The translations under genes and the position numbers were made by a program. From NCBI GenBank assembly GCA_903863035.1, contig CAIPAT010000301.1, positions 1 to 64,000 of the forward strand: 64,000 nt of DNA, read 5' to 3'. This document shows, piece after piece, positions 49,672-58,216 of this stretch (position 1 is its first letter; every line of letters starts with the position of its first letter). The notes under the pieces are model-generated. The model worked only from the letters and a program-made list of their open reading frames with translations, had not been told where the DNA came from and searched no databases. The DNA comes from an uncultured Lentisphaeria bacterium. GTDB taxonomy: Bacteria > Verrucomicrobiota > Lentisphaeria > Victivallales > Victivallaceae.

Positions 49672-50163
49672 ATGAGTAATGACAGACCGCTGTGGGCGCC
49701 ATGGAGAATTGAGTTTATCACAGGTGAAAAGGAAAAACGATGCTTTCTGTGCGGCAAAGAAACGGCTAATCCGGCATGGCCTGAAGAAAATCTGGTAATA
49801 TTTCGCGGCAGCACGTCATTTGTTATTCTGAATCGCTATCCTTATAATTCAGGACATCTGATGATTGCGCCATATTCCCATACGGGTGATATTTCTGCAT
49901 TGACTGCTGAAGAACGTTATGAAATTATGGACTTGTGCGTAAAGTCAAAAGAAATACTTCAAAAAACCATATTTCCGGATGCATTTAATGTCGGATTCAA
50001 TCTCGGCACTGCGGCCGGGGCCGGGATTGCAGATCATCTGCACATGCATATTGTGCCGCGCTGGGCAGGGGATACTAATTTCATGCCGGTAATCAGCGAC
50101 ACCAGATGCGTGCCTCAAGCGCTTGAGGCAACAGCCGCACTCCTCAAGGCAAACTGGAAATAA
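49672..50163 (+). CDS. HIT-family nucleotide hydrolase/phosphorylase (Ap4A type)
   Basis: A 163-residue histidine-triad protein. The active site is DHLHMHIVPRW (His121, His123, His125). The N-terminus RPLWAPWRIEFITG and the CFLCGKE knuckle are those of the actinobacterial and archaeal Ap4A phosphorylase/hydrolase branch (APA2-like HIT proteins). It probably acts on diadenosine polyphosphates or adenylated small molecules in the cytoplasm. AAAGGAA precedes the ATG at the usual spacing. It converges with the HPt gene, with 12 bases between the stops. Confidence 0.92.
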   Translation: MSNDRPLWAPWRIEFITGEKEKRCFLCGKETANPAWPEENLVIFRGSTSFVILNRYPYNSGHLMIAPYSHTGDISALTAEERYEIMDLCVKSKEILQKTIFPDAFNVGFNLGTAAGAGIADHLHMHIVPRWAGDTNFMPVISDTRCVPQALEATAALLKANWK

Positions 50164-50175
50164 TGTGCTTAATCT

Positions 50176-50532
50176 CTACTGCTTTGGGAGAACATCGATA
50201 AGAGCATGCATTTCCTTTTCCATAACAGTAAGCATTGCTTCAGCTTCAGCAGGTTCCTGACGTTTTCCGGCCTGTTCCAGTTTCAAAGCAACAGCATTAA
50301 TTCGTTCAAGGCAAAGCGTGGCGGCTTCCCCCTTCACCAGGTGGGCAGTAGAAATCCATACGGGATAATCCTTAGCCGCAATTGCCGTTTTGAGGGTTTT
50401 TAATTTATCCGGTATCCCGTCGGCAAAATACTGCAACATCTCATCCAGTAATTCCGCATTGTCGCAAAAATTTTCCAGAGCAGTTTCTTTTGCCAGAACC
50501 CGCAGACCTTCAGGAATATATTCCTCGCTCAT
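50176..50532 (-). CDS. Histidine phosphotransfer (HPt) domain protein
   Basis: A 118-residue four-helix HPt protein that relays phosphoryl groups between receiver domains. The phosphorylatable His64 is in STAHLVKGEAATL, the usual H-x2-K-G-x-A/S pattern. It opens with a short N-terminal segment and has no catalytic domain. It lies 20 bases downstream of a stand-alone receiver and in line with the receiver-kinase fusion gene, so those receivers are probable partners. No histidine kinase is in the window, so the phosphate source is unknown. Confidence 0.9.
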   Translation of the reverse strand: MSEEYIPEGLRVLAKETALENFCDNAELLDEMLQYFADGIPDKLKTLKTAIAAKDYPVWISTAHLVKGEAATLCLERINAVALKLEQAGKRQEPAEAEAMLTVMEKEMHALIDVLPKQ

Positions 50533-50552
50533 TTTTTATCCTCCATGATTAT

Positions 50553-50972
50553 TTAATCGAGCAAATGTGAAAGTTTATTTTTTAATACTGAACATAAATT
50601 TTCCATGGACAAAGGTTTGGCGATTATTTCGTCCATGCCGGCTTCATAACATTTTCGTTGCTCGTCCGGCATAATGCCGGCAGTCAAAGCAATAATCGGA
50701 ATATGGTTTGGAGGATTGCGTTGTTTTTCCAGTTCGCGAATCGTGGCTGTTGCCTCCAGACCATCTATTCCAGGCATATTTACATCCACAAAGACTAAAT
50801 TCCAGCTGCCGGAGTTAAACTGCTGCAATAGCTCTTCCCCGTCAACAGCAACACTTACAGAACATCCACACTGCTGCAGAAGACTCGCCATAATCTTCCG
50901 GTTAACCGGACTGTCGTCGGCAATTAAAACCGCAGGAACCATCTTCCACTTAAAACTATATACCATTTCCAT
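50553..50972 (-). CDS. Stand-alone response regulator receiver
   Basis: A single CheY-like receiver with acidic pocket Asp19/Asp20 (LIADDSPVNRK), phospho-acceptor Asp63 (VFVDVNMPGIDG), Thr in ALTAG and Lys in IIAKPLS. The pattern with VNRK and the NMPGIDG loop is typical of the receivers found in hybrid histidine kinases and Barr-like relays, which exchange phosphate with HPt proteins. An HPt gene follows after 20 bases. The ATG at residue 11 (MVPAVLIADD) is an equally possible start, giving 129 aa. The upstream fusion gene ends 23 bases before it. Confidence 0.92.
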   Translation of the reverse strand: MEMVYSFKWKMVPAVLIADDSPVNRKIMASLLQQCGCSVSVAVDGEELLQQFNSGSWNLVFVDVNMPGIDGLEATATIRELEKQRNPPNHIPIIALTAGIMPDEQRKCYEAGMDEIIAKPLSMENLCSVLKNKLSHLLD

Positions 50973-50995
50973 TTGTCACTTTCAATCATATCCGA

Positions 50996-53017
50996 TTACT
51001 GACCGGAAGGAGATTTTTTATCTTTATCTTTATCTTTGCTTATCGGAACTGCCGCATCCTTATCCTTATCTTTGCTTATCGGAACTGCCGCATCTTTATC
51101 CTTATCTTTGCTTATCGGAACTGCCGCATCCTTATCCTTATCTTTGCTTATCGGAACTGCCGCATCTTTATCCTTATCTTTGCTTATCGGAACTGCCGCG
51201 AAATCAGAAGATCCGCAGTTGGGGCACTTGTATGACTCTTCCGAGGCTTTGCTGTATTCCTCGGGAGTCATTTTATCAATATTTTTGATTTCTGGAAGTG
51301 CGAATACACGACTGCATTTATGACATTTCATTGCTGGCGCCACTTGGCCTCCGCAGCGTGTGCATTGGGCCTGGCTGATATCTTTGAGCCGGCGCTCTTC
51401 TGTAAAATTACATTTTTTACAGATAACCGTCATCTCCGGTCCCTGAAGCACCGTCTGCGGTACATCGTTTCGGGTAAAAATATTATACCCAACAATTCCG
51501 GCCGCGACAGATATTACCAGCAGCAGTACAGAGAGGGCGATTATTTTGAACTGCATCTGAGTCAATGACTTCAGTGAATCAAGCAAATTACCGACTTCAA
51601 TTATTTGAATCGCATTTTTCTTTGCCGGCCGGCTAATCGCGGTTTTGACAAAAATATCATCCAGCACTACCATTCTGGCGCGGAGAAGGTCAGGATCTCT
51701 TTCCATTAAATCATCGTTTTTATGTACCGGTTGAACAGCCAGGTCGTCTTCCACCATTCTGCTGCTGCCTTTTTTCTTATCTACCTGTGACAGCAGCATG
51801 CGGCATTTGTTATATTCGATCAAGTTGGAGAAAACATTTTCTAGTTCTTCTTCAGAAGGCCGGTGCTCTGGATTTTTTTCCAGCATGGCAAGAATGGCAT
51901 TTGAAAAATACTCTGTAATATTCTGGTCATAATTCCGCAATGAAGGCGGAACCAGATTGATTTGCCGGAAAATTCCGACAGAAGGGCGGTCAGAATAAAA
52001 AGGGTTGTCTCCGGTAACAGACTGGTAAATAGTTATGCCGAGGCTGTAGATGTCACTTTTTGAGGTTACCGGAAATTCCATTGTCAGGCATTCCGGAGAA
52101 ATATAGCCGGTAGTGGTCCAGTTTTCCGCATTTAGCGGCATTGCCGCCGATTTTCTCGAAACGACTATTCCGAAATCACCAAGTTTGTATTGTCCTTCGG
52201 CGATAAGAATATTCCCGGGGTTTACATCAAGATGAACCAGTCCGTTATCGCGAAGATTTTTGATTCCGCGAACAATATCCAGTCCCATCTGTGCGGCTTC
52301 AAGCTCGTTCAATTTCTTGTGTTTCAGAACTTTCAGTAAATCTGCGTCCACCGCATATTCCTGTACCAGATAAATTCGCTCGTAATACTTGCCTATATCA
52401 TAGATTTTCAGAACATAAGGGGAATCAATTTTACTGAATTTTTTGGCTTCTTCAATATAGCTTTTCACCATATCATCAGGGATGACGGTATCTCTGAAAA
52501 GTTTTAAAGCAAACTTTTTGTCACTGTTTTTGGTATCATTTACCAGAAATACCACGGAATGAGAACCATATCCGAGCATTTTCTCGACCCGGTATTTACC
52601 GTCAAAAACGATGTGTTCTCTGACCAGCTCAAAGTCACGCTTATGCAAAGAGGAGATGTCCAGCGTGGTTTTCAACTTTGCGATGAGGTGCGCTTCTTTC
52701 ACTGGTTTTACCAGATAATCATCTGCTCCGGCATTAAGGCCGTCAAGAATATCATTTTCTTCATCAAGCGCTGATACAATAATAATCGGAACGGATGCAC
52801 CGGCTGGATGTTTCCTGATTTCGCGGCATGCATCCAGTCCGCTCATAACTGGCATGTCGACGTCAAGAATCAGCAGTTCAGGAGAATTTACCAGAAAAGA
52901 TTCTACAGCTTCTTTTCCGTCATTGCAAGAAATAACCTCATGGCCCATCATAGAAAGCATGCTTTCATACGACTTCCTGACAATCAGACTGTCATCGGCA
53001 ATTAATATCTTAGCCAT
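50996..53017 (-). CDS. Receiver-Ser/Thr kinase-membrane-zinc ribbon fusion (paralogue 1, with repeat tail)
   Basis: A 673-residue signalling protein. Residues 1-120 are a receiver (Asp8, Asp9, acceptor Asp52, Lys in LVKPVKEAHL). Residues about 140-400 are a Hanks-type kinase with glycine loop GYGSHSVVF, beta3 Lys in FALKLFRD, catalytic loop VHLDVNPGN, DFG in LGDFGIVV and SDIYSLGI. The catalytic loop has Leu for Arg and Asn where Lys is usual. A single hydrophobic span lies near 487-511. Beyond it are several zinc-ribbon CxxC knuckles (CKKC, CTRC, CHKC, CPNC) and then five copies of AAVPISKDKDKD. The paralogue at 54037 lacks that tail. This is the largest member of the signalling island. Confidence 0.9.
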   Translation of the reverse strand: MAKILIADDSLIVRKSYESMLSMMGHEVISCNDGKEAVESFLVNSPELLILDVDMPVMSGLDACREIRKHPAGASVPIIIVSALDEENDILDGLNAGADDYLVKPVKEAHLIAKLKTTLDISSLHKRDFELVREHIVFDGKYRVEKMLGYGSHSVVFLVNDTKNSDKKFALKLFRDTVIPDDMVKSYIEEAKKFSKIDSPYVLKIYDIGKYYERIYLVQEYAVDADLLKVLKHKKLNELEAAQMGLDIVRGIKNLRDNGLVHLDVNPGNILIAEGQYKLGDFGIVVSRKSAAMPLNAENWTTTGYISPECLTMEFPVTSKSDIYSLGITIYQSVTGDNPFYSDRPSVGIFRQINLVPPSLRNYDQNITEYFSNAILAMLEKNPEHRPSEEELENVFSNLIEYNKCRMLLSQVDKKKGSSRMVEDDLAVQPVHKNDDLMERDPDLLRARMVVLDDIFVKTAISRPAKKNAIQIIEVGNLLDSLKSLTQMQFKIIALSVLLLVISVAAGIVGYNIFTRNDVPQTVLQGPEMTVICKKCNFTEERRLKDISQAQCTRCGGQVAPAMKCHKCSRVFALPEIKNIDKMTPEEYSKASEESYKCPNCGSSDFAAVPISKDKDKDAAVPISKDKDKDAAVPISKDKDKDAAVPISKDKDKDAAVPISKDKDKDKKSPSGQ
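51020..51201 (-). repeat. Five 36-bp tandem repeats in a coding tail, with alternating 72-bp pattern
   Basis: The core GCTTATCGGAACTGCCGC (plus strand) recurs exactly every 36 bases, beginning at 51038, 51074, 51110, 51146 and 51182. The bases between cores alternate between CATCC and CATCT, so the array grew as 72-bp pairs. Each unit encodes AAVPISKDKDKD at the end of the fusion kinase. Confidence 0.92.
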
Positions 53018-53039
53018 ATCATTTCTCCTAATAAGGTTG

Positions 53040-53969
53040 TTATTGAGGCATTCCCATCTTGTAGTGTCCCATTATCTCTTTATCAGACAATGCTTTATTG
53101 TATATTAAAAACTCGTCCATAAAACCCGAAAACCAGTTGGAAAAACGTGGAGTTCCTTTTGCGTTAACTCCGTTATTCGACGCTCCGAGCACCAGGTCTT
53201 GAGTCGCCTGATAGCTGATCGGGAGGGCAGGGGTATTCCCGCCTGTCATCAGCGTTCCGTTTACATACATTTTGACCCCGACTTTGGCCTTATTGACCAA
53301 TACTATATTATACCAGGTCGACGGCAGAATTGCCGGTATGGTTCTGGTTAAATTTGAATTGCCGACGCGCGACCGCAAGGAAGCGTTCAAATACAGATCA
53401 TATTGAGAGTTCCCGGTAAGCGTGTTATTTTTGCCGAAAAGACACTGCACAGTGCGTGCTGTATTGAAATTGACCCACATCAATACCGTAAAATCCTGAA
53501 CAGACGGATCAAAGCTTACACATTTTGTTCCGGGAACTGTCACATAACTATTGCTGCCGTTAAAAGATAACGAGTTCTTTAAGTGCAACCAGCGTCCGCC
53601 GCCCTGCACCCATTGCGGCAAATTCAGCGCGGCAGTCCTGGGATTGGTAACCGTCGTGGATAGAATCCCATTGTAACTGGCCGAATCATAACCGGGCATA
53701 TTGCAGGCCAGCGCACCATTATACAGCGTCGGCGTATAAATCCCGTCAACTTTCGTCTGAAAGTCTATGGCTTCAAAGTTATAATTGATTACCGTATCCG
53801 GATCGCGATTATTCTGAGCATTGGACGCCAGCCAGCGTACGTACTTAGCACGTTTCTGCGCCTTTGCATAAGCCGGCATCATCATTCCAATCAGGACTCC
53901 GATTATGGAAATCACTATAAACATTTCAACAAGAGTGAAGCATAATTTCTGTTTCGAATATCGCCTCAT
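53040..53969 (-). CDS. Pseudopilin with C-terminal LamG-like (concanavalin-fold) domain
   Basis: A 309-residue type II secretion/type IV pilus-like protein. The prepilin signal is RRYSKQKLC followed by FTLVEMFIVISIIGVLIGMMMP: mature Phe1 and Glu5 are present, but the -1 residue is Cys10 instead of Gly. After the helix come about 60 residues, then a LamG/laminin-G3 jelly roll at about 130-300 (LSFNGSNSYVTVPG, FTVLMWVNFN, WYNIVLVNKAKVGVKMYVNG, GFMDEFLIYNKALSDKEI), a fold that often binds carbohydrate. It lies between two paralogous receiver-kinase genes in the same orientation, with gaps of 22 and 67 bases, so the three probably share a transcript. It may carry the extracellular sensing or adhesive function of the island. 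Confidence 0.88.
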   Translation of the reverse strand: MRRYSKQKLCFTLVEMFIVISIIGVLIGMMMPAYAKAQKRAKYVRWLASNAQNNRDPDTVINYNFEAIDFQTKVDGIYTPTLYNGALACNMPGYDSASYNGILSTTVTNPRTAALNLPQWVQGGGRWLHLKNSLSFNGSNSYVTVPGTKCVSFDPSVQDFTVLMWVNFNTARTVQCLFGKNNTLTGNSQYDLYLNASLRSRVGNSNLTRTIPAILPSTWYNIVLVNKAKVGVKMYVNGTLMTGGNTPALPISYQATQDLVLGASNNGVNAKGTPRFSNWFSGFMDEFLIYNKALSDKEIMGHYKMGMPQ

Positions 53970-54036
53970 GTTCTGATTCTCCCGACTTAATTTAGAAAGT
54001 CATCATATAAAATAATTAACCAGTTGCTCTCTAAAA

Positions 54037-55869
54037 TTACAAGTCACTGGTTTCTTTAGTTAACGGCACCGCTGAAATTTCATCGGTGCCACACTTGGGA
54101 CATTTATAAGTTTTCTTAACAGCTTCACTGTATTCCTCTGGAGTCATATTATTCGCTCCAGTTAGCTCAGGCAACGCGAATACATGTTTGCAATTTTCGC
54201 ATTTTTCCGCCATCGCTATCGGACCTTCACATTTGCTGCATTTTGCTTCAGTAATTTCTTTGACTCTGCGTTCTTCAAGTAAATTACATTTTATACAGAT
54301 TACTGCAGTCATTGGTCCCTGTATAACCGCAACTGGAACTCTGTCCGAAAAAACATGATATCCCGCCCAGCCGGCAGCGGCAGATACTAGCAAAAAGGCT
54401 GCAGATAAAGCTATTATTCTGGGATCACTGCGCTTCAGTGATTTCAACAGCTTTTTAGCTTGACGTCTGTAAAGCGGCATTTGTCCAAGGCGTTTTTCGA
54501 TAGACGCAATCTTTACCTGCGGCGCCGGAGTAAATCCACGTTCGGTTGAATGTTCGGCAGTTGCTTCCTCCGCAACTAACAGTTGATTGGATGCGGCAGA
54601 CACAGCCTCTTGAGACCTGGCTGCTTTTTGCTTAGCATTTACCTGATCTTCGCGACATTGATTATATTCAACCAGACTGGCAAAAACTTCCTCGAGCTCC
54701 TCTTCCGATGGTCTCTGTGCCGGATTTTTCTCCAGCATGGCAAAAACTGCTCCGGAAAAATACTCCGATACACCCTTGTCATAATTCTGCAGTGCCGGTG
54801 GAATCAGGTTGACCTGACGGAACATGCTGACTGAAGCACGCTCGGAATCAAAAGGATTGTCTCCGGTGATTGCCTGATACAAGGTTATGCCCAGGCTGTA
54901 TATGTCACTTTTAGTGGTCAACTCATTTTCACAAGTCAAGTATTCCGGCGAGATATAACCGGCAGTACTCCATATTTCCGCGTTTAGCGGCATGGTTACT
55001 GATTTTCGCGGAACGACCATCCCGAAATCGGCAAGTTTGTAATGCCCGTCACTGCAAAGAATATTGGCAGGTTTGATATCGAGATGAACTATCTTTTTTT
55101 TACGAAACTCTTTAATGCCGCGGACAATGTCATAAGCGAGTTGCGACGCTTCCAGTTCAGTCAGTTTCTTGTGTTTTAGAATTTTCTGCAGATCGCCGCC
55201 AGCCGCAAATTCAAGCACCAGATAAATTCTGTCCTGGAACTTGCCGACATCATAGATTTTAAGAATACTTTCGGAATTGATTTTGCGGATTACTTCAGCT
55301 TCAGCAATGAAACACTTTACCATGTCTTCCGCGGCGAATGACTCTTTCAACAGTTTGAGTGCGCATTTGCGGTTATTATCTTCAAGATCGCTAACCAGAA
55401 ACACCGTAGAATGGGAACCGTACCCCAGCATTTTTTCAATCCGGTATTTTCCGGCAAATACAGTGCGTTTTTTAGCCAGATCGAAATCCTGCCTGTGCAA
55501 AGCGGAAATACCAAGCGATGTTTTCAGTTTGGCGATAAGGTGCGCTTCTTTTACCGGCTTTACTAGATAGTCGTTAGCGCCGGCGTTGAGCCCTTGGAGA
55601 ATATCGTCTTCTTCTTCCAGCGCCGAAACAATAATAATCGGAATTGAAGCGCCATTCGGCAACCTCCTGATTGCACGGCAGGCATCGAGACCGTTCATAC
55701 CCGGCATCTGAACGTCAAGAATCAGCAGTTCCGGAGATTCAGTTTCAAATGCAGTTATTGCATCCTTGCCGTCTTTGCAGGATATAACATCATGCCCTAG
55801 AAACGTGAGCATGCTTTCATAAGACTTCCTGACAACCAGGCTGTCATCAGCAATTAATATTCTCGCCAT
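54037..55869 (-). CDS. Receiver-Ser/Thr kinase-membrane-zinc ribbon fusion (paralogue 2)
   Basis: A 610-residue paralogue of the protein at 50996-53017, colinear over the receiver (MARILIADDSLVVRKSYES), kinase, membrane span (about 480-503, IIALSAAFLLVSAAAGW) and zinc ribbons (CIKC, CSKC, CENC, CPKC). Its catalytic loop VHLDIKPAN keeps the Lys that the other copy has lost, though HRD still reads HLD. It has a Gln/Ala-rich linker between kinase and membrane (about 400-460) and no tandem-repeat tail. It is the first gene of this minus-strand run, with no other gene for 237 bases upstream. Substrates are unknown. Confidence 0.92.
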   Translation of the reverse strand: MARILIADDSLVVRKSYESMLTFLGHDVISCKDGKDAITAFETESPELLILDVQMPGMNGLDACRAIRRLPNGASIPIIIVSALEEEDDILQGLNAGANDYLVKPVKEAHLIAKLKTSLGISALHRQDFDLAKKRTVFAGKYRIEKMLGYGSHSTVFLVSDLEDNNRKCALKLLKESFAAEDMVKCFIAEAEVIRKINSESILKIYDVGKFQDRIYLVLEFAAGGDLQKILKHKKLTELEASQLAYDIVRGIKEFRKKKIVHLDIKPANILCSDGHYKLADFGMVVPRKSVTMPLNAEIWSTAGYISPEYLTCENELTTKSDIYSLGITLYQAITGDNPFDSERASVSMFRQVNLIPPALQNYDKGVSEYFSGAVFAMLEKNPAQRPSEEELEEVFASLVEYNQCREDQVNAKQKAARSQEAVSAASNQLLVAEEATAEHSTERGFTPAPQVKIASIEKRLGQMPLYRRQAKKLLKSLKRSDPRIIALSAAFLLVSAAAGWAGYHVFSDRVPVAVIQGPMTAVICIKCNLLEERRVKEITEAKCSKCEGPIAMAEKCENCKHVFALPELTGANNMTPEEYSEAVKKTYKCPKCGTDEISAVPLTKETSDL

Positions 55870-56106
55870 TTTACTACTCCAGGAACAGGCTTTTTAATGA
55901 TAATTTTACATTATCAATTTTGTATGTACAAAACCTGCAAAAACTTACAACTGACTTAAAATAATTCTTTATTTGCAATAATCAATCAGCGCTAAGTACA
56001 AATAGGGGAATATTTACCTGTGTATATGCAAATAACCAGGCTGGTAAATCCATGAAACGAATTTTATGGGCTTCAATATCGACAGTAAATTAAGATTTGA
56101 ATACAA

Positions 56107-56490
56107 TTATTTTGAGCATATTTCTATCAGCAGAAGGATGCATACTATATAAGCCGGGCCGGCAAAAATAACCGAAAGAATTCTGGCAAATTCTAATTCA
56201 TCGTCTTTAACCGGCAATGCCCGAGGCGTGAATTTTCGTATGTCACCCCAAATCGACATATAAAAATCGAACAGAATAATACCGGTTACGGGCAGCACCC
56301 ATATAACAGAAATCCGGTCTTTGATATCCGGGTAAAAGTAAATAAAAATCAGAAAAGCCATGTAAACGCCGGACAATAGTTCATACAGCAGCATCGCCAG
56401 GCTGCCTTTATACTTTATCCAGTAATAAATATTGGAAAGAAGAATAAGCAAATAAATGCAGACATAGGTAAGCATTATAAAACGCATCAT
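56107..56490 (-). CDS. Small integral membrane protein, unrecognised
   Basis: A 127-residue protein with four predicted membrane segments (about 4-22, 36-55, 62-80 and 104-123). The second and third are separated by the short loop YPDIKDRIS. A charged loop, RKFTPRALPVKDDELEF, precedes the last. I do not recognise the family. It is encoded 38 bases downstream of the Ser/Thr kinase gene on the same strand, so co-expression with that kinase is likely. No ribosome-binding site is striking; two ATG codons stand together at the start. Confidence 0.65.
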   Translation of the reverse strand: MMRFIMLTYVCIYLLILLSNIYYWIKYKGSLAMLLYELLSGVYMAFLIFIYFYPDIKDRISVIWVLPVTGIILFDFYMSIWGDIRKFTPRALPVKDDELEFARILSVIFAGPAYIVCILLLIEICSK

Positions 56491-56528
56491 ATGCTCCGCA
56501 TTTCTCTTATTCCGCTAAGCAGGCAAGC

Positions 56529-57572
56529 CTATTTGCCTGTGACCTTGAAGTAGTCGTTCGGCAGCACCACCGTTTTGTCGCCGTGGCTGACGCTCTCCAG
56601 AATAAGCGTTTTTTCCGCTGTTTCCGATTCAGTATTTTCAATGATTTGATCAGAGAAAATACCGGGCATTTGCTCTCTGAGATAGTTTGCCAGTGTAACA
56701 ATAGTCGGACCGTAGCCGTCTTTGTAAATGAAATATTCCAAGTCTTTAGCCAGTTCAGAAGTATTTTGATAACGGTCTTCAGGACTGGTGGTCAGCATTT
56801 TTCTCAAGATTTTCTGTAATTCCGGGTCAAGTCCTCTGGGCAGTTTTTCCCAGTCAATATAATTCTCCTGTGCCTGTAGCAGGATTTCACGGAGCTTTAC
56901 ATCAAGCCTTCTCGTAGTATGTCCGGAAAGCATGTAGAAAAGCACAATTCCAAGTGAATAAATATCTGATCGGAAATCGATTTCTGCTTTATTGGCCTGT
57001 TCCGGAGACATGAACGGCAGCTTCCCGGAAATGGTATCGTCACTGCAGATGGTGGCGGCTCTGGCAATCCCGAAGTCGGTAATTTTAGGCAGGCCTTCCG
57101 ATGTGATCAAGATATTGTGAGGGCAGATGTCGCAGTGGACAATATTCATAGGCTGTCCCAGCGAGTCTTTGCGGCTGTGCGCGTAAGCCAGGCCGCGCGC
57201 CACGCGCGCCGCCACAAACACCGCAAGATTCCGCGGGAACGGCGTGTTCGTTTTATTGTGGAATTCCATGAAATCGAACAATGAAATGCCGTCAACATAT
57301 TCCAGCACGAAAAAGTATTGATCGTTATATTGGCTCAATTGATAAATCTGTACGATATTTTCATGCACCAGGTTGGCTACCAGCTTGGCTTCTTCAATAA
57401 AGCGGTCAACAAATTTCTGATCATCAGAATAGCAGCTTAATAAAGTTTTAATAGCAACTACTTTTTCAAATCCTTCCAAACCCTTCGCCAGTGCTTTGCA
57501 TACAGAGCCCATGCCGCCTTCTGCAATGTGCGCAATTATTTCATACTCAACATTTCCATATAATTTTTCCAT
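56529..57572 (-). CDS. Soluble Hanks-type Ser/Thr protein kinase with degenerate HRD motif
   Basis: A 347-residue kinase without receiver or membrane span. The glycine-rich loop is IAEGGMGSVCKA, beta3 Lys is in VVAIKTLL, and DFG is in KITDFGIARA. APE is replaced by SPE in FMSPEQANKAEIDFRSDIYS. The catalytic loop IVHCDICPHNILI has Cys for Arg and Cys for Lys, so catalytic strength is uncertain; kinases of the VHRDVSPQN type are the nearest pattern. A 70-residue tail follows the kinase fold. AAGGAGCTG lies before the ATG. The membrane protein and the HD gene flank it on the same strand. Confidence 0.9.
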   Translation of the reverse strand: MEKLYGNVEYEIIAHIAEGGMGSVCKALAKGLEGFEKVVAIKTLLSCYSDDQKFVDRFIEEAKLVANLVHENIVQIYQLSQYNDQYFFVLEYVDGISLFDFMEFHNKTNTPFPRNLAVFVAARVARGLAYAHSRKDSLGQPMNIVHCDICPHNILITSEGLPKITDFGIARAATICSDDTISGKLPFMSPEQANKAEIDFRSDIYSLGIVLFYMLSGHTTRRLDVKLREILLQAQENYIDWEKLPRGLDPELQKILRKMLTTSPEDRYQNTSELAKDLEYFIYKDGYGPTIVTLANYLREQMPGIFSDQIIENTESETAEKTLILESVSHGDKTVVLPNDYFKVTGK

Positions 57573-57625
57573 TTTCAGCTCCTTGTTAATATTGTTAATC
57601 CTGTATATTTGCTTCTCTAAATTTA

Positions 57626-58216
57626 TTAGAACACGGTGCTCTTTCTTGCATCAATCAGTTGCTTCAGGCAGTCTGCTTTAACTGCGTCTCTCGATTCCCG
57701 GCAGTATCTGGTGAAATAATGGTGGTTTTTTAGAAAATTAATCTGAAAATCCAGCCACTCCTGATCGGTAAACAAAATATTGTAAAAGCTCATTTCCTTT
57801 CGCAGCAGCGTTGACTGCTTATCATATTCTTCCGTCCCCAGATATTGCAGATCTGCGTCACAGATAATCTGTTCTTCCAGGTTTCCCGGCTTCTGAGGGA
57901 TTCTTGTTGCCAGGATCACGCGGCATATTTTTTCAATTTGTTCAGGAGTATAATCGTATTCCGGCAGAAATTCCCGGGCTATTTCTGTTCCAATCCGTTC
58001 ATTGTCTACCGGCATCCGTAAATAGCCTGAGTCATGAAAAAGCGCCGCCGTCTTAAGGATGATTATTTCTTCTTCCGGCAGCCCTTCAGCCCTGCTGAAT
58101 TCTTCCGCGGCTCTGATAGTCTCACAGGTATGGCTGACATTATGGTAGTATAATTTATCTGAAAGCTTTCTTTTCAGCATATCTAAAATAAATTTTTCTA
58201 CTCTGGCGTAATCCAT
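57626..58216 (-). CDS. HD-domain metal-dependent phosphohydrolase
   Basis: A 196-residue HD protein. Metal ligands follow the order H...HD...D: YHNVSHTCETIRAAEEF (His), LKTAALFHDSGYL (HD) and IICDADLQYLG (Asp). HD proteins of this size hydrolyse nucleotides or cyclic nucleotides, but this one carries no signature of a named subfamily. It lies 54 bases upstream of the kinase gene on the same strand and is divergent from the adenylate cyclase across 268 bases. A role in turning over the cyclase product is conceivable but only inferred from position. Confidence 0.88.
   Translation of the reverse strand: MDYARVEKFILDMLKRKLSDKLYYHNVSHTCETIRAAEEFSRAEGLPEEEIIILKTAALFHDSGYLRMPVDNERIGTEIAREFLPEYDYTPEQIEKICRVILATRIPQKPGNLEEQIICDADLQYLGTEEYDKQSTLLRKEMSFYNILFTDQEWLDFQINFLKNHHYFTRYCRESRDAVKADCLKQLIDARKSTVF

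Follow-up and report, generated by a model that had tools for sequence, protein, structure and literature searches.

A LamG modular pilin and a zinc-ribbon membrane protein form a conserved gene pair in Lentisphaeria, with a receiver-kinase form that may link pilin state to signalling

There are few model systems for the open question of how bacteria learn what their pili have touched. In the PilS-PilR/PilA system of Pseudomonas, a membrane kinase is coupled to an inner-membrane type IV pilin, and PMC6058289, citing Kilmury and Burrows (2016), states that PilS responds to PilA in the membrane. In FimS-AlgR with PilY1 and the minor pilins, a two-component system receives feedback from pilus tip proteins that bear an adhesin (PMC5979040). 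PilC of Streptococcus sanguinis is a lectin modular pilin (PMC9934059), and PF13385 is listed as a common modular pilin architecture (PMC9934059, PMC8179133). Here, we analysed a window of 64,000 nucleotides from an uncultured Lentisphaeria bacterium (contig CAIPAT010000301.1, positions 1 to 64,000), in which five minus-strand genes at 50176-55869 encode a pilin with a LamG domain, two membrane-bound receiver-kinase fusions termed RKZ, a stand-alone receiver and an HPt protein.

The RKZ proposal is like PilS-PilA in that a membrane kinase is coupled to a pilin. PilS is, however, a histidine kinase, whereas RKZ is a Ser/Thr kinase with an N-terminal receiver (REC), one transmembrane helix, a zinc-ribbon tail and a lectin-type pilin partner. 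No HisKA or HATPase_c domain was found by Pfam in any of the five window proteins, and membership of the PilS-type pilin sensors was rejected; RKZ and its pilin may work somewhat like PilS and PilA, by an analogy of function only. FimS-AlgR differs in its kinase class and has no gene fusion, zinc ribbon or LamG pilin. The lectin modular pilins share a C-terminal ConA-like/LamG domain with the window pilin but, as presented in PMC9934059 and PMC8179133, have no dedicated zinc-ribbon membrane partner or kinase. PASTA-type kinases (Stk1/PknB) have a cytosolic Hanks kinase, one transmembrane helix and an extracytoplasmic sensor, as predicted for RKZ, and give its best NCBIfam match (residues 136-505). 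RKZ has a receiver in front and zinc ribbons replacing the PASTA repeats; its 166-200 bits against a cut-off of 450, with no PASTA match in Pfam, led us to reject membership. The lone receiver and HPt resemble, in the same order, the REC-HPt tail of ArcB/BarA-type hybrid histidine kinases, whose relays target a transcription factor receiver, whereas the target here would be a Ser/Thr kinase's receiver. Membrane signalling linked to pilins is known; the open-licence literature searched gave no description of the RKZ receptor, of its zinc-ribbon tail or of its partnership with a lectin pilin, and no system of this composition. The initial annotation of the window, made from the sequence alone, likewise knew of none.

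The five genes are present as that annotation described them, on one strand and with gaps of 20-67 bases (67 between kB and the pilin gene, 22 between the pilin gene and kA, 23 between kA and the receiver gene, and 20 between the receiver and HPt genes):

54037..55869, minus strand: kB, REC - Hanks Ser/Thr kinase - transmembrane helix - double zinc ribbon ("RKZ"), 610 amino acids (aa), first gene of the operon
53040..53969, minus strand: LamG/ConA-like modular pilin, 309 aa
50996..53017, minus strand: kA, second RKZ, 673 aa
50553..50972, minus strand: stand-alone receiver, 139 aa
50176..50532, minus strand: HPt protein, 118 aa, His64

All five are under purifying selection, with ratios of nonsynonymous to synonymous substitution of 0.09-0.29 against the congeners. 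In these congeners (uncultured Lentisphaeria CAIKZE and CAIMFA) the same five genes were found, in full order in one and split over two contigs in the other. Since the flanking genes are equally syntenic within the genus, synteny at this level is alone no evidence of function.

The initial annotation had staked its proposal on conservation of the neighbourhood in related genomes, and the association of RKZ with the pilin passed this test. With a full-protein profile, RKZ was located in a single Lentisphaeria order, where it spans about 17 genera and six families. When 84,980 species were scanned with one genome for each, 22 loci were obtained, and the record titles were in every case Lentisphaerae, Lentisphaeria, Victivallis or relatives; beyond these, identity drops to kinase-only matches in other phyla. 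Of the RKZ loci in the order, 22 were assessable, and at 21 of these the gene adjacent to RKZ encodes a LamG pilin on the same strand, with spacing from an overlap to a 98-bp gap; two further RKZ loci end at contig edges and lie outside the 22. The 21 loci come from the three genomes of this genus and from G042 (two), G060, G052, G012, G015, G051 (two), G045, G041, G038, G056 (two), G123, G122, G049, G011 and G027, and at the exception (G122:C248) the neighbour is a pilin without LamG. The counts are lower bounds wherever they were taken over a capped number of best candidates from each genome, and short contigs are numerous.

The arrangement of two kinases around the pilin, which had been proposed as the unit, belongs to this genus; other genomes have one. 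In the RKZ tree, kA, kB and their congeneric orthologues form a single fully supported clade, and the pair is therefore a duplication on the branch to this genus. G011 and G027 have a single RKZ, no receiver or HPt, and the same prfA-HIT flank, which marks theirs as the same ancestral locus.

The conserved unit is a LamG modular pilin together with a transmembrane protein with eight invariant cysteines, whose cytosolic head takes one of three forms, the receiver-kinase among them. A profile of the transmembrane-ribbon tail gave 69 matches across 198 genomes of the class, and when 388 genomes of the phylum were searched with a profile of the ribbon, the matches were confined to this class. Three head forms were distinguished, namely RKZ (about 600 aa), a small transmembrane-ribbon protein (140-170 aa) and a multi-ribbon-transmembrane-ribbon protein (430-770 aa), and LamG pilins adjoin all three. 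Of the ribbon matches, 42/69 lie within 3.5 kb of a LamG pilin; conversely, among the 46 best LamG pilins, 36 have a ribbon match no more than 3.5 kb away, or 38 counting two beside half-ribbon RKZs. Small kinase-free ribbon proteins (about 150 aa) stand beside LamG pilins in at least 11 genera, and none of five ribbon-less receiver-kinase fusions (G012:C371, G042:C104, G049:C7, G042:C125 and G040:C359) has a neighbouring LamG pilin. The LamG pilin therefore tracks the ribbon and not the kinase, and the receiver-kinase was rejected as the part that tracks the pilin.

The phylogenies agree with this pairing. A tree of 35 pilins resolved into three clades, linked to the RKZ, small and multi-ribbon forms without exception (two changes, compared with 15.1 in shuffles), and the match holds even in the many genomes that have two forms. 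The ribbon tree is concordant, with two changes and weaker support. Ribbon and pilin distances correlate at r 0.74 for RKZ and 0.70 for the small form, values uncorrected for species relatedness.

Several related proteins were observed alongside these families. G042:C125 encodes an 858-aa receiver-Ser/Thr kinase fused to malic enzyme (PF00390 and PF03949; L224:4030-6606, minus strand), an odd pairing, and G040:C359, from a second family, an 857-aa receiver-kinase of similar size whose C-terminus lies outside the domain scan (L225:92-2665, minus strand). The receiver-kinase of G042:C104 has a C-terminal GH26-like domain (PF02156 in a scan of L223 only; L223:8164-10314, minus strand), and that of G049:C7 (L222:7988-10450, minus strand) has a similar gene neighbourhood in a second genus. 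Another family of the class (f21) has kinase-transmembrane-ribbon proteins with no recognisable receiver (L231:8495-13810 in G097; L228 in G099), which adjoin large LamG proteins, one with a GH42-like domain. The multi-ribbon-transmembrane-ribbon genes of G000:C336 (L061:9855-11615, minus strand) and G001:C130 (L060) have no LamG pilin nearby and share the same 470-aa and 710-aa neighbour genes.

The domain assignments uphold the description of kA and kB as paralogous fusions of a receiver, a Hanks kinase, one membrane span and zinc ribbons. The two are 56% identical, and Pfam found Response_reg at 4-115 (E 3e-28) and Pkinase at 142-392 (1e-47) in kB and the same domains in kA (1e-26 and 3e-40). 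The features of the two proteins are as follows:

55525..55860, minus strand: kB receiver domain (PF00072, 4-115), with D8, D9, acceptor Asp52 and K104 present
54694..55446, minus strand: kB kinase domain, with K172, D264, N269 and D281 present; HLD replaces HRD
54361..54417, minus strand: kB single transmembrane helix, residues 485-503, from hydropathy and as a helix in the AlphaFold model
54091..54297, minus strand: kB double zinc ribbon, eight cysteines (C525-C593), predicted outside the cytoplasm
51215..51421, minus strand: kA double zinc ribbon, from sequence comparison with relatives
51020..51199, minus strand: 36-bp x 5 tandem repeat coding AAVPISKDKDKD, at the kA C-terminus

The kA receiver likewise keeps D8, D9, D52 and K104, and the residues of a Hanks kinase (catalytic Lys, HxD Asp, Asn and the DFG Asp, numbered K172, D264, N269 and D281) are present in both proteins. 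In the catalytic (HRD) loop of kA, Lys266 is replaced by Asn, a change shared by the congener's kA. On these residues kB is likely an active kinase, and kA, given the Lys-to-Asn change, may be weak or regulatory. Among 16 RKZ proteins, the catalytic and receiver residues are kept in nearly all, with L055 and the receiver of L067 as the clear exceptions. In L055 the catalytic Asp and the DFG Asp are lost and the receiver is degenerate, and the pilin and ribbon are retained. The C-terminal array of kA, absent from both congeners, consists of five 12-aa repeats; as the congeners hold one unit at most, it is a recent expansion.

kA has one transmembrane helix (residues 492-510), and in both proteins the helix is followed by eight cysteines in four CxxC motifs, invariant in 16 relatives. 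In the AlphaFold model of the transmembrane-ribbon tail, the ribbon part has a predicted local distance difference test score (pLDDT) mostly above 90. A Foldseek search with this model gave no match at E <0.001, and generic ribbons such as HypA were all that it returned. Over the 16 RKZ proteins, 96 Lys/Arg residues lie before the helix and 43 after it. This richer N-terminal side, together with hydropathy, supports a cytosolic kinase and a ribbon outside.

The third protein, between kB and kA, carries the features of a LamG pseudopilin that had been assigned to it:

53073..53561, minus strand: pilin LamG domain (Laminin_G_3 in Pfam), similar in fold to ConA-like carbohydrate-binding domains

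The domain (PF13385) covers residues 137-299 with an E-value of 1e-18. The FTLVEM leader, with Glu5 and a hydrophobic helix, is that of a prepilin, and the model (mean pLDDT 86) has a long N-terminal helix at 13-55; matches to the GspG and PilA models are weak. Foldseek returned ConA-like matches for the LamG part, the best by size being AbnA domain 4 (5hon; template modelling score 0.74 by target length), which that entry describes as belonging to a ligand-bound arabinanase. The matches of the pilin are generic ConA-like or jelly-roll folds, including receptor-binding domains of clostridial neurotoxins and sialidase lectin domains, which on these models we read as similarity of fold with no functional link. 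T2SSF platform proteins are present in this genome, which has at least 150 pilin genes among those listed. LamG pilins of this type number three, and each adjoins one of the genome's five ribbon proteins. Many contigs of the genome begin about 100 bases ahead of a pilin-leader gene (e.g. G000:C54:104, C277:95 and C464:104), and the repeated prepilin N-terminus therefore seems to break the assembly.

The lone receiver (Pfam E 7e-27) and the HPt protein (3e-10) follow kA as annotated, and His64 of the latter stands in HxxKG. Their co-occurrence with RKZ, which had been expected along with that of the pilin, holds in part. In about nine lineages, RKZ has a histidine-kinase or phosphorelay gene as a neighbour: HK-REC-HPt, where HK is histidine kinase, at L052; REC-HPt and HK-REC-REC-HPt at L053 and L054; HK-REC at L058; HK-REC-REC-HPt at L059; PAS-HATPase or HATPase kinases at L057 and L065; a receiver protein at L064; and the receiver and HPt of this genus. 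About half of the RKZ loci have no adjacent phosphorelay gene, and phosphorelay input is therefore common, not universal. L055 and L067, with their damaged receiver pockets, have no adjacent two-component gene. With the lone receiver, the L052 hybrid kinase shares 42% identity over its own receiver, and the kinase neighbouring the G012 receiver-kinase shares 38%; the REC-then-HPt order is the same in the window operon and in these hybrid kinases. From these identities and the shared order, the two separate proteins look like the tail of a hybrid histidine kinase that has been split off, and they fall outside the universal core. A genome-wide search for the partner, using a relative's HK-REC-HPt, gave 28 matches and no clear candidate; nearly all were histidine kinases elsewhere in the genome, along with the window's own receiver.

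The borders of the operon were examined in the window. Downstream of the HPt gene lies a convergent HIT-family gene ending at 50163. Upstream of kB, the following gap is the likely start of the operon:

55870..56106, no strand: intergenic gap of 237 bp, with weak promoter-like sites reading into kB (consensus match alone)

Beyond it, on the same strand (56107-58216), are a further Hanks kinase (56529-57572), a small protein with no Pfam match that is apparently membrane-spanning, and an HD-domain protein. This group is kept in the congeners and was not seen at the RKZ loci of other families.

We propose, with a probability of roughly one half, that the locus encodes a pilin-coupled signalling module in which the ribbon docks on the LamG pilin and couples pilin state to a phosphorelay-gated kinase. 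The ribbon-pilin contact, topology, glycan ligand, phosphotransfer and direction of this module, which we infer, would be as follows. The kinase head would be cytoplasmic and the ribbon tail periplasmic, docking on the LamG pilin in a membrane pool or in a complex at the filament base or tip. Glycan binding by the LamG head, or pilin assembly or depletion, would change this contact and with it how active the kinase is. A hybrid histidine kinase with its gene elsewhere would at the same time relay phosphate by way of HPt to the kA and kB receivers, and Ser/Thr phosphorylation would require both the intracellular phosphorelay cue and the pilin state. More broadly, and with confidence somewhat short of even, the data suggest a two-protein Lentisphaeria family, not described before, made up of a lectin pilin and a dedicated membrane protein whose extracytoplasmic double ribbon would read or anchor it. 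The cytosolic heads vary, and RKZ, as a transmembrane receptor, would merge the phosphorelay and the pilin-borne surface signal into Ser/Thr phosphorylation.

Several observations weigh against the proposed module. Its ribbon-pilin contact is deduced from gene association, and a glycan is a putative ligand of LamG. The mirror-tree correlation takes no account of how related the species are, and the trees could also match if the two genes had been duplicated together. The topology rests on hydropathy and charge, by which some of the 16 sequences are neutral and one is contrary, and zinc ribbons outside the cytoplasm are unusual. The adjacent phosphorelay gene is missing at about half of the RKZ loci, and the L055 pseudokinase with its retained pilin and ribbon shows that at least one lineage can do without an active kinase. 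This last locus also fits a reading with the direction reversed, to which we give about one chance in three, less than to the module. This reading takes the ribbon protein mainly as a membrane chaperone or anchor that would stabilise and position the LamG pilin, with kinase and phosphorelay timing assembly or release, and thus as an effector of piliation and not a sensor. The kinase-free ribbon proteins speak for it, as they imply a role of the ribbon without signalling, and the modular pilin PilC of S. sanguinis is stabilised by a partner pilin (PMC9934059). Taken alone, it leaves unexplained a fused receiver and kinase whose catalytic residues are kept over deep divergence; because nearly every sequence retains its kinase and receiver residues, we favour the receptor over assembly control.

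It is unlikely that the genes are neighbours and nothing more, co-inherited for regulatory convenience, with kinases acting on unrelated targets and the pilin one of many pseudopilins. The equally syntenic flanks within the genus would suit such a case, but families whose flanks otherwise differ still have the pilin-RKZ adjacency, partners of three architectures occur with an exact match of pilin clade to partner type, and 3/3 LamG pilins stand beside a ribbon protein in a genome so rich in pilins. Chance neighbourhood was rejected on this conservation and the matching pilin clades. A defence module built on a Ser/Thr kinase, against phage or otherwise, is highly improbable. The kinase domains do match PADLOC kinase models (mad6, PD-T4-6) with up to 200 bits, but these matches are mainly to the generic kinase domain, with none for the pilin, receiver or HPt; the separate kinase at 56529-57572 scores equally high, and nothing in the conserved neighbourhoods is reminiscent of a defence island. 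With kinase-domain matches only and the full gene sets absent, the MADS and PD-T4-6 systems were rejected.

The signalling module that we prefer would be a compact receptor made up of a pilin with a lectin-type domain and a partner that is the kinase itself, and the kinase-free and pseudokinase variants offer natural controls. If true, it would be a rare direct junction of a His-Asp phosphorelay with Hanks-kinase signalling, and would help to explore the function of the very large expansion of pilins in the Lentisphaeria. In this little-studied group, the recurrent pairing of pilin and ribbon protein, the latter here also a signalling kinase with two inputs, suggests an undescribed link from a surface filament to signalling inside the cell.

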